The notes below the pieces were generated by a model. The model searched no databases, had not been told where the DNA came from, and saw only the letters and a program-made list of their open reading frames with translations. Positions 8,301 to 24,068 of a DNA stretch of 24,267 bases are shown piece by piece. Origin of the DNA: a virus; IMG/VR virus record IMGVR_UViG_3300009503_000123, positions 1 to 24,267 of that record; one strand, written 5' to 3'. Numbering within the stretch: the first letter of the stretch is position 1; each line of letters starts with the position of its first letter. The position numbers and the translations under genes were made by a program.

Positions 8301-9377
8301 ATGGCGTGGTTGGAGTCGCACCAATCGTTGGCGAACCACCGTAAGCTGTTGCGGTTGGCCGATCTCACGGGCGTTTCCGAAGTGACGCTCATTGGCCACC
8401 TCCACTTGTTGTGGTGGTGGGCGCTCGATAATGTCGGACCGGAAGGATGCTTGGAGGGGATCTCGGACCGGGCCTTGGCCGTCGCGGCGCGGTGGCCCGG
8501 GGATGCCGGGCAATGGACCCAGGCTCTCGTGATGTCGGGGTTCCTCGACGAGGATAGCCTCGGCGTCCGGTGGCTTCATGATTGGCACGACTACGCGGGC
8601 AAGCTCCTGGAGCGCCGCGCCGAAGACCGCGCCCGGAAGCGGGCCGGTACGCGCCGACCGGTCTCGTCGCCGTCCGGATCCGCTACGACGGAGGGTCCGG
8701 CACATCTCCCACGGAATTCCGATGGACTTCCTGCCGAAGTCTCTCCGCCATCCCCCGGAGACAGTTCGGAGCCTCGCACGAACCGCGTACGTACAGTACC
8801 CAACAGTACCGTACCTAACCCTACCGAACCGAAAGATCCCCCCCTCGGATTTGCTCCCGCAAATCCGGTCCCCCCCTTAGCTGACGCCGGGGGGGACCCG
8901 TCGGTGACCACACCGTCGGACGAACGGCCCGCCTTGCCAGAACCGCCGAAGCCGCGGCACCCTCCGCGCCGGCGCCAAGCCCCTGATGTGCGGGCCCTCG
9001 TGGCAGAGTGGCGGGCCGAGTTGACTCGCCTCGGTGTGCCCTTGGCGCCCGATTGGCATCTCATTGCGGGCAGCGTCGTGCAAACGTGGGTCGATCACGG
9101 CCGGTCGGTTGACGAGGCGCGTGATTGGTGGACCTGGGCGGCCGAGCACCCGTACTGGGCTGTCCATCGCCACGAGCCCCAGAAGTGGCGGGATAGCTTC
9201 GGGCAGTGGCGCCTCAGTCAAGGGGCCCCCCTGCCGCGCGACCGGCCCAACGGCCGCCCGCGCCAGGACTGGCTGGCCGGCGGAGCGGCGGTGGAGGCCC
9301 TGTTGCACGCCGACTGGGGACCGCCGCCAGCCACCACCCCGCCGGACGAGGAGGGACGGACGGATGACCCACCGTGA
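8301..9377 (+). CDS. Phage replication initiator / replisome-organizer-like protein
   Basis: 358 residues. The N-terminal domain (1-115) has the familiar phage replisome-organizer pattern: WLESHQSLANHRKLLRLADLTG, then HLHLLWWWALDN, GFLDED, WLHDWHDYAGKLLERR. A long Pro/Ser/Thr-rich linker (about 115-225) follows and then a second helical, Trp-rich domain (VRALVAEWRAELTRLGV, RDWWTWAAEHPYWAVH, about 228-310). This domain order and the overlapping downstream gene fit an origin-binding protein with a helicase-loader partner. DNA coding for the linker carries repeats and a hairpin that may be the origin itself. RBS is AAAGGGG, eleven bases before ATG 8301. Confidence 0.78.
   Translation: MAWLESHQSLANHRKLLRLADLTGVSEVTLIGHLHLLWWWALDNVGPEGCLEGISDRALAVAARWPGDAGQWTQALVMSGFLDEDSLGVRWLHDWHDYAGKLLERRAEDRARKRAGTRRPVSSPSGSATTEGPAHLPRNSDGLPAEVSPPSPGDSSEPRTNRVRTVPNSTVPNPTEPKDPPLGFAPANPVPPLADAGGDPSVTTPSDERPALPEPPKPRHPPRRRQAPDVRALVAEWRAELTRLGVPLAPDWHLIAGSVVQTWVDHGRSVDEARDWWTWAAEHPYWAVHRHEPQKWRDSFGQWRLSQGAPLPRDRPNGRPRQDWLAGGAAVEALLHADWGPPPATTPPDEEGRTDDPP
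8784..8867. other. Candidate replication origin within the initiator gene
   Basis: In the linker-coding part of the initiator gene, ACAGTACC occurs at 8793-8800 and again at 8803-8810, and GTACC again at 8811-8815. Then CGGATTTGC (8846-8854) and GCAAATCCG (8859-8867) form a perfect 9-bp hairpin with a four-base loop. The stretch is more A+T-rich than its surroundings. Lambda (ori inside O) and many Gram-positive phages keep their origin inside the initiator gene in such a linker. No DnaA box is claimed. Confidence 0.45.
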
Positions 9378-9942
9378 GGTACGCGCCTTAATCGCGTTCT
9401 GCGTGACCGCGCTGCCAGGGCTGACGGTGCCGCCGGAGCCGCAGCTCTCGCGCATGGTCGCGGTCTGGACCGATCTGCTGGGCGATCTGCCGACGGATGT
9501 GGCCCGGGCGGCCGTGCGGCGGGTGCTGATGGAGCAGACCGGCGCGTGGTGGCCGACCCCGGGGGCAATTCGGCACGCCGCTGCGCAATTGATGCAGCCC
9601 GCGCGACCCAGCGTGGAGGCCGCGTGGGGCCAGGTGCAAGGCGCTGTCCGCCGATACGGGTATTACCAGCCCGACGCCGCCCTCGCGACCCTGGATCCCC
9701 CCGTGCGGGCCGTGGCGGAGGCCCTGGGCTGGGAGGCGATCTGCTTGGGCGACCCCGACGTGCTCCGGGGTCAGTTCGCCCGGTACTACGCGGCGGCGGC
9801 GGAGGGGGTGGACCGGGCCCGCCGGCTGCCCGCCGACCTCCAAGACGGGGCCTTGCACGATCCGGGCGTATCCCCGACCGCGAGTCCGCCCCCCTTGGCC
9901 GATGTGCTCCGCCGGGCCCTGAGCCGGGAGGCACCGTCATGA
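9364..9942 (+). CDS. Probable replicative-helicase loader / initiator partner, 192 aa
   Basis: Overlaps the initiator gene by 14 bases. The pattern VRALIAFCVTALPGL, LSRMVAVWTDLLGDLPTDVARAAVRRVLMEQTGAWWPTPGAIRHAAAQL matches the helical domain seen in phage helicase-loader/inhibitor proteins (G39P-like) and similar replisome proteins: a 'W-x2-LL-x-D-LP-x-D-V-x-A-A' helix set followed by 'WWPTPGAIR'. The C-terminal half (SVEAAWGQVQGAVRRYGYY to FARYYAAAAEGVDRARRLP) is also helical. No Walker motifs, so it is not an AAA+ DnaC-type loader. Start ATG 9364 has GAGGAGGGA upstream. Confidence 0.7.
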   Translation: MTHREVRALIAFCVTALPGLTVPPEPQLSRMVAVWTDLLGDLPTDVARAAVRRVLMEQTGAWWPTPGAIRHAAAQLMQPARPSVEAAWGQVQGAVRRYGYYQPDAALATLDPPVRAVAEALGWEAICLGDPDVLRGQFARYYAAAAEGVDRARRLPADLQDGALHDPGVSPTASPPPLADVLRRALSREAPS

Positions 9943-11467: not shown

Positions 11468-12174
11468 TGCCCAAACGGCAGGCACTGGTGTTCGTTGACC
11501 CCGCGACGGCGCAGCCGCGCCCCCTGACGTGGACGGCGGTCGATGTCACGGTGGAGTACACGGAGCCGCTGTTGGGGACGGTCCCCCGCGACCCAGACGT
11601 GTATGCGCGATACCTGGCGCCCCGGGCCCCGGACACCGAGCGGGGGGCGGAAGAGATCGCCACGGTCGAGGCGGCCCCGGAGGACGAACCGTTGGGGCCC
11701 GCGTGGACGGGGTTTCACCGCGACGAGGAGGGCTACTTTGTCTATGACTATTTCGTCGCCGGGCATCTCCGCGAGTCCGCCTTGGAACTCAAGGACGCGC
11801 TCCAGATCCCGGCCTTGCGGAGCTATGTGGAACAGTACCTCGTGATCACGCCACGCCGCCTGCGGTTCCAATGGCCGCCGGGGTTTCATCCGGACCCGGA
11901 ACTCCCCCACCTGGAACGCTCGTTGCGGGCCAGGACGCGCCAGGGACCGCGTATTACCATCGTTCGGTCGGACTACGTCCCGGCGGGTACCCGGCTGCAC
12001 TTCCGCCTGCACCTGCTCACCAACGCCCACTTTTCGTGGGATGTGGTCCGCACGCTGTTCACGGGGCAGTGGCGCGGGATGGGCCAGTGGCGGAACGGCG
12101 GGTGGGGCCGCTACGACGTGGTGGGATGGGAACCTGTCACCGGGGAGGGCGTGGTGCCGGATCGGCGGCGATAA
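11467..12174 (+). CDS. Hypothetical phage protein, 235 aa, with RAMP/Cas6-like glycine motif
   Basis: A soluble protein. The N-terminal half has strand patterns (RQALVFVDPAT, WTAVDVTVEYTEPLLGTVP) and an acidic loop. The middle reads YFVYDYFVAGHLRESALELKDAL and LVITPRRLRFQWP. The C-terminal half has AGTRLHFRLHLLTNAHFSWDVVRTLF and then G-M-G-Q-W-R-N-G-G-W-G-R-Y near 204-216. The last element, G-x-G-x5-G-x-G, resembles the glycine-rich loop of RAMP-fold proteins such as Cas6, and the preceding 'G..L.F.L.L' strand fits that fold. No catalytic His/Lys set is evident. ATG 11467 is chosen over GTG 11464 because GAGGAGGG then has normal spacing. Confidence 0.7.
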   Translation: MPKRQALVFVDPATAQPRPLTWTAVDVTVEYTEPLLGTVPRDPDVYARYLAPRAPDTERGAEEIATVEAAPEDEPLGPAWTGFHRDEEGYFVYDYFVAGHLRESALELKDALQIPALRSYVEQYLVITPRRLRFQWPPGFHPDPELPHLERSLRARTRQGPRITIVRSDYVPAGTRLHFRLHLLTNAHFSWDVVRTLFTGQWRGMGQWRNGGWGRYDVVGWEPVTGEGVVPDRRR

Positions 12175-16959: not shown

Positions 16960-17355
16960 CTACGGGGACACGACGCGGAAGCTCCAGGTGCCCGTCGGGC
17001 CGGAGATCGTCAAGACGCCGTGCTGGAGGAGGTTGTCCCCGAAGAGCCCCTGCGCGGCGGGGTCGGGAATCGGCCAGGCCAACACCTCGACCTGCCGCAG
17101 GGTGCCCCCGTCCCGCAGATCGAGATCGACCCGGTAAGACGGCACGTGAATCGGGGCCCCGGCAATGCCCTGGACGGTGGCGGTCCGGCCGGTCGGCGGG
17201 GCTTGGATCGAGCGGAGAATGGAGGGGTCGAGCAGGGCGACCGTATCCCCGGTATCCACGCGCAACCGGACCCAAACCCCGGGAAGATCCGGGCGGGCCG
17301 GATTGCGGATCCGGGCGGTCAGGATGAGGCCGCCGTGGGGTGTCAGGGCGGGCAT
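16960..17355 (-). CDS. Retropepsin-like (clan AA) aspartic-protease-fold protein
   Basis: 131 residues. GLILTARIRNPARPDLPGVWVRLRVDTGDTVALLDPSIL carries the D-T-G triad of clan AA proteases in the right strand-loop context; the second half has GLFGDNLLQHGVLTIS, corresponding to the conserved '(L/I)(L/F)G.d.L....' strand. A single D-T-G per chain implies a homodimer. Start at 17355 has GGAGGAGG upstream; an extension to 17415 has none. It lies last in the leftward set, after a GC hairpin. Roles could be processing of virion proteins or only the fold without catalysis (the residue after D-T-G is Asp rather than the usual Ser/Ala). Confidence 0.62.
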   Translation of the reverse strand: MPALTPHGGLILTARIRNPARPDLPGVWVRLRVDTGDTVALLDPSILRSIQAPPTGRTATVQGIAGAPIHVPSYRVDLDLRDGGTLRQVEVLAWPIPDPAAQGLFGDNLLQHGVLTISGPTGTWSFRVVSP

Positions 17356-17380
17356 CGATGTAGCCTCCTCCGACGGGAAA

Positions 17381-17403
17381 CGCCCCGGAGAGGATCCGGG
17401 GCG
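17381..17403 (-). terminator. GC-rich hairpin, possible terminator or attenuator on the minus strand
   Basis: CGCCCCGGA and TCCGGGGCG form a perfect 9-bp stem with a five-base loop. Read leftward it is followed by TTTCCC, a very short T-run. It stands between the 65-residue gene and the retropepsin-like gene. A weaker GTAGG/CCTAC pair at 17405-17419 lies just upstream of it in that direction. Partial termination would lower expression of the protease-like gene. Confidence 0.45.
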
Positions 17404-17421
17404 TGTAGGACGCACCTACGG

Positions 17422-17619
17422 TTAGTAAGAAGCTCCTTTCCCGCGAGCCCATCTCCCGTACGCCTTGGCGCCCTTGCCCTGGGTCCGGGCCCGGTACATC
17501 TGGAAGCGAGCGGCGCACACCTGCGGATCCATGCCAAATTCCTGCACCTGTTTGATGCAGTAGTCGTTTTGGTCCACATTCGCGACGCCCTGGTCATAGG
17601 CCGGTGCCCAACTGGCCAT
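17422..17619 (-). CDS. Small hypothetical protein, 65 aa
   Basis: Mostly helical with two Cys: DQGVANVDQNDYCIKQVQEFGMDPQVCAARFQMYRART, then a basic Gly/Lys-rich tail (QGKGAKAYGRWARGKGASY). ATG 17619 lies behind GAAAGGGGG; a GTG at 17637 is possible but lacks an RBS. The basic tail suggests contact with DNA or phosphate groups. It is transcribed from a short region shared with the homing endonuclease on the other strand. Family unknown. Confidence 0.62.
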   Translation of the reverse strand: MASWAPAYDQGVANVDQNDYCIKQVQEFGMDPQVCAARFQMYRARTQGKGAKAYGRWARGKGASY

Positions 17620-17642
17620 TGGAAATCCCCCTTTCACCGCGC

Positions 17643-17671
17643 ACGATAATTGGTCCGCCGGGGAATATCGT
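17643..17671. promoter_or_regulatory. Symmetric divergent promoter-like motif (ACGATA-N17-TATCGT)
   Basis: ACGATA at 17643-17648 is the exact reverse complement of TATCGT at 17666-17671, with 17 bases between. Because 17 is the usual -35/-10 spacing, the same element reads as a promoter on both strands, towards the 65-residue gene and towards the homing endonuclease. TATCGT matches four of six -10 positions; ACGATA is a poor housekeeping -35. A TATCGTGGGG motif also precedes the 21998 gene start. Confidence 0.4.
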
Positions 17672-17705
17672 CATGAGCAGTACTACGGGCACTGAGGAGG
17701 GCAAA

Positions 17706-18416
17706 ATGAGTCGTAGCGTGCTCTACGGCCGTGGCGAGGAAGTGGTCGCGCGGTTTACGAAAGGCGAGACCGTGGCGTCGTTGGCCCAGAGTTTTGGGGT
17801 CCCCGAACTGGCCATCCGGCGTTTGCTCTCTCATAAAAGCGCAGGATTACGCATCCGGGCCTGGGAGGATCGTTATCGCCAGGTTCGGCACATGTCCGAA
17901 GCCCAGGCTGCGTACCTCGCGGGCCTCTTGGACGGGGAAGGGCATATTGGGGTGCGCTGGGCCGTGATTCGCACGGGCCGCTATCCGCGCGGCGGCGTGA
18001 CGGCAGCCCTGATCGTTAGCTTGACCAATACGAGCGCCGAGGTGATCCGATGGCTCGTCGAGACCACGGGCTGTGGGCGTGTCAATGGTCCGTATCAACA
18101 AGGTCTCCGACGCCCCAAATGGTACTGGCAGATATCCGGCTATCAAGCGTCGGCGGTCTTGAACCGGATCCGCCCCTACCTGATCATCAAGGCCCATGAA
18201 GCGGATCTCTTCCTCGAGATGGTCCGCCTCAAGGCCATGTCGGATCCGGTCCACGGACCGTTTAACCTCCGGCGCCAGGCCGAAATTGTAGCCGAGATGG
18301 CTCGGATCCAACGGCGGGGCGGCGGGAAGGGACCGGCCCGCAAGCCCGAAAACCTCGAACACATCCGGACCTATTTGCGGGACCACGGCATTCCCGCCGA
18401 CTTGTGGCCCGACTAA
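17706..18416 (+). CDS. Free-standing LAGLIDADG homing endonuclease with N-terminal HTH
   Basis: 236 residues. AYLAGLLDGEGHIGV near 76-90 is one LAGLIDADG motif with the catalytic acid in DGEG. The following strands (GGVTAALIVSLTNTSAEVIRWLVETTGCGRV, WYWQISGYQASAVLNRIRPYLIIKAHEADLFLEMV) match the single-motif LAGLIDADG domain, so it should act as a homodimer. Residues 8-42 form an extra HTH (EEVVARFTKGETVASLAQSFGVPELAIRRLL). ATG 17706 has GAGGAGGG upstream. It lies on the plus strand between two leftward genes and its stop codon overlaps the neighbouring leftward stop by two bases, as expected for a mobile intergenic insertion. Confidence 0.88.
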   Translation: MSRSVLYGRGEEVVARFTKGETVASLAQSFGVPELAIRRLLSHKSAGLRIRAWEDRYRQVRHMSEAQAAYLAGLLDGEGHIGVRWAVIRTGRYPRGGVTAALIVSLTNTSAEVIRWLVETTGCGRVNGPYQQGLRRPKWYWQISGYQASAVLNRIRPYLIIKAHEADLFLEMVRLKAMSDPVHGPFNLRRQAEIVAEMARIQRRGGGKGPARKPENLEHIRTYLRDHGIPADLWPD

Positions 18417-23605: not shown

Positions 23606-23650
23606 GCCCGCTACCCCCAGTGTAGCGGAGGACGGGCCGTTATCACGGGG
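23606..23650 (-). promoter_or_regulatory. Hairpin and weak promoter between phosphatase and coiled-coil gene
   Basis: CCGCTAC (23608-23614) pairs exactly with GTAGCGG (23622-23628) over seven bases. Overlapping it on the minus strand is GTGATA-N16-TACACT, matching four of six positions in each box, followed by GGGGG and then the RBS of the 23587 gene. It may start a lysis transcript or be an operator; no T-run follows. Confidence 0.35.
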
Positions 23651-24059
23651 TCCGGGCCGCGGCCCAGGCCCGCCACGCCGTCCACAGCGCCGCGTGCGGG
23701 GCGGCCAGCGGATGGACCCGTTGCAGATAGGCCCAGGCCGCGTCCGGGGTCATGTGCTCCCGGGCCACCAACACCGCGAGCACGGCGGCGGAGGACCGGC
23801 TGATCCCCTGGCCGCAGTGAATCAGGACCGGCTTGGGGAGGGCGTCGTACGCCGCGACCACCTGGTCGAACCACGCGGGACCGGGATCCTGGCCGTCGGG
23901 GACCCCCAGCCCCTGAACGGGGATGGCCGGATGCTGGTAGCCGCCGATACACTCGGCGCACACGTTGATCACGCTGTGCCACGGGGCCTCGGCGACATCA
24001 TCCGCTGTCCGGGGCCAGGATCCTTGCCAGAGCCGGTCGGTCACCCGGACTCGCAGCAT
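23643..24059 (-). CDS. Dual-specificity / tyrosine phosphatase-like protein
   Basis: 138 residues. VRVTDRLWQGSWPRTADDV opens the fold like small DSPs, VPDGQDPGPAWFDQVVAAYD holds the probable general-acid Asp, and PVLIHCGQGISRSSAAVLAVLVA has the complete P-loop H-C-x5-R-S (Cys near 82, Arg near 88). Such enzymes dephosphorylate proteins, inositides or RNA 5' ends. It is surrounded by membrane and protease-like genes of the leftward module. ATG 24059 suits the fold best; an in-frame GTG at 24065, four bases after the previous stop, adds two residues. No clear RBS, so coupled to the upstream gene. Confidence 0.85.
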   Translation of the reverse strand: MLRVRVTDRLWQGSWPRTADDVAEAPWHSVINVCAECIGGYQHPAIPVQGLGVPDGQDPGPAWFDQVVAAYDALPKPVLIHCGQGISRSSAAVLAVLVAREHMTPDAAWAYLQRVHPLAAPHAALWTAWRAWAAARTP

Positions 24060-24068
24060 GGCCACGGC

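Follow-up and report, generated by a model that had tools for sequence, protein, structure and literature searches.

A probable replication origin of 11-bp iterons and pentamers inside a phage initiator gene, with two residues of a basic helix predicting the iteron word

Phage replication origins are hard to locate, above all in metagenomes. The virus record IMGVR_UViG_3300009503_000123, whose 24,267 bases were taken whole as the window analysed here, poses the question in a specific form: does the initiator gene at 8301 carry, within its own linker-coding DNA, the place at which replication begins? The initial annotation had put a candidate origin at 8784-8867, pointing to short repeats, a hairpin and a raised A+T content, and had suggested that the low-complexity linker may exist because its DNA is under selection. 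The central idea, that of an origin inside the initiator gene, is upheld by the sequence evidence: the gene belongs to an initiator family, and most relatives carry iteron and pentamer arrays at the matching place. Our reading is that the linker DNA from about 8693 to 8831 is very probably a replication origin, in which a basic helix of the initiator would read the iterons and the pentamers would open.

The product of the gene at 8301 matches phrog_9474, annotated as 'replication initiation protein', over aa 1-122 (E 1.6e-36), and the initiator of Paenibacillus phage Harrison shares 36% identity with it. No Pfam family matches the product at E<=0.1; RepA_N (PF06970), Phage_rep_org_N (PF09681), Lin1244_N and Phg_2220_C are among those without a match, and a search of solved structures by sequence gave no credible match either. 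Upstream there are genes for an exonuclease (YqaJ/RecE-like) and an annealing protein (RecT), and downstream, besides the gene at 9364, there is a weak match to an Hjc-like resolvase. The product of the 9364 gene matches phrog_9804, of unknown function (E 1.1e-24), and a very weak match to SPP1 G39P makes it a possible helicase loader. The genes around 8301 are an ordinary phage replication module. Elsewhere in the window, a dual-specificity phosphatase gene is found at 23643-24065 (-), with a DSPc match of E 1.5e-8 and the motif HCGQGISRS; 16960-17415 (-) gives a weak aspartyl-protease (retropepsin-like) match, PF13650 at E 3.6e-4, below the curated cut-off; and an ORF at 17604-18416 (+), which has no Pfam match, contains a LAGLIDADG-like motif, YLAGLLDGEGHIG, and possibly encodes a homing endonuclease.

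An AlphaFold2 model of the initiator (mean pLDDT 90.6 over aa 1-132) shows a helical basic region, in the form of a single helix that follows an N-terminal winged-helix domain (Table 1). Residues D109 (codon 8625-8627) and K113 (codon 8637-8639) lie about one helical turn apart in the modelled helix, which stops at about aa 117 and is followed by the low-complexity linker; no leucine zipper is evident. Foldseek by itself returned no significant structural match to the model. The best structural matches, which are weak, are RepA_N plasmid initiators (Z 4.5-5.4), and the DnaD N-terminal domain, also a weak match, ranks below them.

Table 1. Coordinates of the initiator gene, its predicted domains, the repeats and hairpins of its linker DNA, and the following gene (window positions).
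Feature	Position	Strand	Description
Replication initiator gene	8301..9377	+	358 aa; putative origin within
Winged-helix domain, N-terminal	8301..8597	+	aa 1-99; AlphaFold2 model
Basic alpha-helix	8583..8651	+	aa 95-117; AlphaFold2 model
Weaker iteron unit	8693-8703	+	GGGTCCGGCAC; directly upstream of the five-iteron array
Five 11-bp iterons (called with a matrix from relatives)	8704..8758	+	ATCTCCCACGG AATTCCGATGG ACTTCCTGCCG AAGTCTCTCCG CCATCCCCCGG
Junction	8759..8791	+	three degenerate 11-bp steps, G+C-rich end AACCGCGTACG, then pentamers
Pentamer array	8792..8831	+	eight units TACAG TACCC AACAG TACCG TACCT AACCC TACCG AACCG
First hairpin	8846-8867	+	CGGATTTGC-TCCC-GCAAATCCG
Second hairpin	8868..8897	+	GTCCCCCCC / GGGGGGGAC; adjoins first hairpin
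Possible helicase loader gene	9364..9942	+	PF11417 Inhibitor_G39P E 0.016, below curated cut-off

Within the linker-coding DNA, eight consecutive 5-bp units follow the consensus [AT]AC[AC]N. Runs of at least five such units occur at this place only in the whole window, where shuffles expect 0.00, and lag-5 self-similarity lies above that of synonymous-codon shuffles (p=0.01). The two copies of ACAGTACC ten bases apart that had first drawn attention to the segment are present, at 8793 and 8803, with a further GTACC at 8811; a single additional copy of ACAGTACC is found in the window, at 11832. The copies at 8793, 8803 and 8811 are parts of the pentamer array, and judging from the sequence they are probably not the main binding sites of the initiator, for which the 11-bp iterons are the likely candidates. 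The segment is also A+T-richer, as had been noted: it has 57% G+C vs 69% in the gene and ranks among the lowest 3-4% of 84-nt stretches in both gene and window. A run of C lies 3' of the pentamers in the window (8839-8845) and likewise in loci L048, L060, L363, L365 and L373.

Relatives were collected by an N-domain profile search, which yielded 80 viral loci; with loci from genome and phage collections added, 63 distinct genes were obtained, 62 of them long enough for analysis. The window protein itself, used as query, retrieved two relatives from viral contigs and three from genome contigs, whose identity to it over the matched part was 43-56%. Because the nearest relatives are too distant for a dS test, codon shuffles were used: synonymous codons were permuted within each gene, leaving the protein unchanged, and self-similarity was compared at lags 2-22. 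The initial annotation had named the absence of the repeats from relatives as a ground for refutation; most of the 62 carry repeats in the linker, with an array of 11-nt period directly upstream of an array of 5-nt period. A short G+C-rich junction separates the two arrays, with class-specific words (GACGGCGCA, GTCACGGGGC, GTGCAGGGGC).

The peptide repeats of the linker vary by clade (TVPNR, TVQYS, TGPDR, REEKR, VDKTR), and the period of the DNA is 5 nt. Over the 62 relatives, only lags 5, 10, 11, 15 and 22 stand clear of the shuffles, and lag 20 does so weakly. Single genes reach p<=0.05 at lag 5 in 42 of 62 cases and at lag 11 in 37 of 62, as compared to 2-11 cases at most other lags. The computed placement of the arrays is equally specific, in that the locus-wide maximum of self-similarity falls inside the linker, which makes up 7% of the locus, at lag 5 in 50 of 62 loci (window included) and at lag 11 in 45 of 62; control-lag maxima fall there in 6-14 of 62 loci. 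Repeat units are found in all three reading frames. Since the periods 5 and 11 are not multiples of 3, all frames are used and the shuffles are exceeded, it is the DNA that is selected and not the protein, which bears out the earlier suggestion about the linker. Loci L002 (3001-4176), L059 and L071 have linkers with a TCGGGGGCGA-like repeat in several frames and both orientations, together with a helix that lacks the usual pattern; that pattern is [NDE]-x2-R-[KMSQ]-x2-[SAHWY]-R.

Two residues of this helix, 109 and 113, predict the iteron word that is repeated in the linker. With the iteron classes of the training set assigned by eye, these positions were the best class predictors among all 115 columns of the N-domain; the columns of the winged-helix recognition helix rank under them, and that helix was discarded as the specificity determinant. 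The code was then applied, with the word patterns of the training set, to 65 new relatives that have <25% of 14-mers in common with that set, and in a stricter version to the DNA downstream of the helix codons only. In the stricter run it was correct in all 27 of the 27 callable new relatives, which represent three main types, while label permutation gave a mean of 11 and a maximum of 21 in 10,000. Taking training and new relatives together, D/K is paired with GTCC (34/34), N/K with GTCAC (13/13), N/M with CACGTGC (11/11) and E/S with GACC (6/6), and the remaining helix types go mostly with GTAAC or GTCAC. Iteron words overlap helix codons 108-113 in only 1 of 78 sequences; thus, the code is no by-product of coding, and the possibility that iteron DNA dictates the helix codons was rejected on this count. 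On a tree of aa 1-98 the iteron class changes approximately 27 times and the residue pair approximately 28 times, counts that are rough because many forks are weak, and the starred branches alone provide just 1-2 independent pairs per class.

The phage helix shares in part the spacing of the eukaryotic bZIP basic region, N-x2-AA-x2-[SC]-R, but the first Ala of that region (+3) is replaced by Arg. Among the iteron words are CRE/C-box, G-box and A-box-like cores, and we take several of the words to resemble bZIP sites. From sequence comparison of this kind, the likeness of helix and iteron words would be convergence at most, and homology is not claimed.

For the window, GTCC-type iterons were predicted because its helix carries D109/K113. 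An iteron matrix was built from 39 D/K relatives, with the window left out, and both strands of the window were scanned. The prediction was matched at 8704-8758, the top five-unit 11-bp array of the window, which scored 27.2 bits, with the next unrelated place at -0.8; against synonymous shuffles the array reached p=0.001 within the linker and p=0.0066 over the gene as a whole. The phase of these putative iterons meets the pentamers exactly (8704 + 8x11 = 8792). The window iterons are degenerate, lag-11 self-similarity not being significant when the matrix is left aside (p=0.22), and the call therefore depends on the matrix from relatives. They lie outside the limits first proposed for the origin, 8784-8867.

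Similar arrays extend beyond this protein family. Scanning IMG/VR at the DNA level, without regard to protein, returned at least 174 sites with pentamer arrays. Among the matches listed, 121 sites are ACC-type and 53 ACAG-type, of which 39 and 4, respectively, lie within ORFs with an 8301-type N-domain; many of the arrays among these matches are found inside initiator-like ORFs of other kinds, in some cases on the opposite strand, and at 51 of the 174 loci no long ORF covers the array. The array-bearing initiator-like ORFs that were scanned include matches to Phage_rep_org_N, Lin1244_N and Phg_2220_C. Some arrays sit in non-initiator genes, including cytosine-methyltransferase-like ones. Because arrays occur without a long ORF or in such genes, pentamers by themselves do not mark an origin. 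Loci L220, L231, L241 and L250 contain ACAGA pentamer arrays within cytosine-methyltransferase-like genes and not within initiators.

In 25 distinct ORFs outside the N-domain family, most of them initiator-like, 11-bp repeats precede the pentamers: in the 70 nt before the array, self-similarity is highest at lag 11 (0.39 vs 0.25-0.31 at lags 6-10 and 12-15). Loci L093, L094, L101, L102 and similar ones have initiator-like genes with VRLGKVRLGK linkers and pentamers on the opposite strand (TTACCTAACCTAACC). Of two well-studied phage initiators, TP901-1 Rep repeats at 15 nt, with no clear 5- or 11-nt period, and A118 gp49 repeats at 12 nt; the iteron-pentamer layout is not clearly seen in either, and both were set aside as clear cases of it. 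Taken broadly, a bZIP-like helix with a two-residue code on iterons, and pentamers serving as a DnaA-trio-like track across initiator families, might constitute a widespread origin type, a generalization for which we hold belief and doubt to be evenly weighed.

How such an origin would work can be proposed in outline. Three things are inferred: the iterons are bound by the helix, the pentamers are where the duplex melts, and replication starts at this place. The basic helix at the end of the winged-helix domain would bind within the major groove of the 11-bp iterons, residues 109 and 113 would select the iteron sequence, and initiator protomers would stack along the iterons, one per helical turn. 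The protein assembly might extend across the short G+C-rich junction to the pentamer array, where the duplex would open and the initiator, or a partner such as the loader, would hold one strand in steps of 5 nt. Helicase loading would follow, through the variable C-terminal domain and the product of the next gene. Pentamers are alike across initiators with differing helices and iterons are not, which makes it probable that a partner common to these initiators reads the pentamers or that they are recognised in a general single-strand mode.

The coupling of iterons to the helix points to likely binding and not, in itself, to initiation, and plasmid iterons often have a control role as well. The repeats could on these grounds be operator or incompatibility sites for the control of transcription or copy number, with replication starting elsewhere. 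We consider this unlikely, since it leaves no role for the pentamers and the G+C-rich junction that come after the iterons, does not explain why pentamer arrays are common to other initiator families, and is at odds with SPP1, TP901-1 and pSK41, in which repeats within the gene were shown by experiment to be the origin (PMC6316719, PMC8965321, PMC5703833).

Another candidate for the functional origin is the pair of hairpins at 8846-8897, which would serve as a single-strand initiation or primosome site to which the repeats are accessory. The perfect hairpin described by the initial annotation, a 9-bp stem closing a 4-nt loop, does exist, and is not rare alone, as there are three perfect stems of at least 9 bp in the window vs 2.0 expected. 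The second hairpin directly adjoins it, which accounts for the strong fold of 8780-8915 relative to its own shuffles (z -5.25); 8832-8907 has z -3.26, and 13 of 67 relatives have a fold z below -2 downstream of the array. However, a perfect stem of at least 8 bp is present there in just 6 of the 67 relatives, window included, and Rfam gave no match to the hairpin region. This scarcity removes the hairpin as a conserved part of the origin, and that the hairpins are the origin proper appears very unlikely. Least credible, and strongly disfavoured, is a neutral expansion by slippage in a disordered linker that the protein tolerates, which would suit the low complexity of the linker and the microsatellite-like pentamers of unrelated genes and of DNA outside long ORFs, but slippage within a gene should raise periods 3, 6 and 9, none of which is raised, the units diverge in sequence while the period stays, and iterons in three frames obey the two-residue code in new sequences.

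If the linker DNA is indeed an origin of the kind proposed, sequence alone would suffice to find the origins of many phages in which replication has never been studied. Two residues would give the iteron sequence, and hence which phages and plasmids should compete for replication. The odd TVPN, REEKR and VDKTR linker repeats of annotated initiators would be a by-product of selection on DNA.

Lambda ori lies in gene O and comprises four iterons of about 18 bp in the linker-coding part, plus an AT-rich region. The putative iterons of the window phage likewise fall within DNA that encodes the initiator's linker, but their lengths differ (about 18 vs 11 bp). Origins within initiator genes are already established for SPP1, TP901-1/Tuc2009 and RepA_N plasmids. 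In SPP1 oriL (gene 38) and TP901-1/Tuc2009 rep, experiments identified direct repeats within the initiator gene as the origin, and initiator, loader and helicase act in sequence, as proposed here (PMC6316719, PMC8965321). SPP1 has an AT-rich unwinding element where the window phage has pentamers (PMC6316719). Protein searches with the 8301 family recovered neither SPP1 gene 38 nor TP901-1 rep. In the RepA_N initiator pSK41 Rep, the N-terminal winged-helix domain binds boxes central in its own gene, the origin DNA encodes a linker whose protein sequence is dispensable, and recruitment of the replication machinery falls to the C-terminal domain (PMC5703833). The differences are that four Rep boxes are described in pSK41, as opposed to 11-bp iterons and then pentamers, and that pSK41 Rep contacts DNA through the winged helix (PMC5703833), whereas in the phage initiator it is the separate basic helix behind the winged-helix domain that specificity follows. 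A putative origin within the Phg_2220_C gene of Francisella phage KIRK has iterons and a 5-residue repeat, KDNNK x3, described for this one phage without periodicity analysis or residue code (PMC7924643). No description of the 11-bp and 5-bp layout or of the residue code was found in the open-access papers that were searched.

The arrangement also invites comparison with the bacterial chromosome. At oriC, duplex DnaA boxes are followed by a G+C-rich stretch and then by DnaA-trios that run away from the boxes (PMC10201434, PMC10797057). The basal unwinding system of oriC has 9-bp boxes and 3-nt trios, in contrast to the 11-bp and 5-bp elements of the window phage, and the initiator here is not DnaA; DnaA boxes with TA[GA] trinucleotide repeats are accordingly not what the linker holds. 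By analogy, we put forward as a hypothesis a parallel between the phage layout and this basal unwinding system, with its DnaA-trios and DnaD recognition element. If the proposed layout is right, it makes a question testable, namely whether phage origins use single-strand tracks read step by step, in the manner of the bacterial DnaA-trio.
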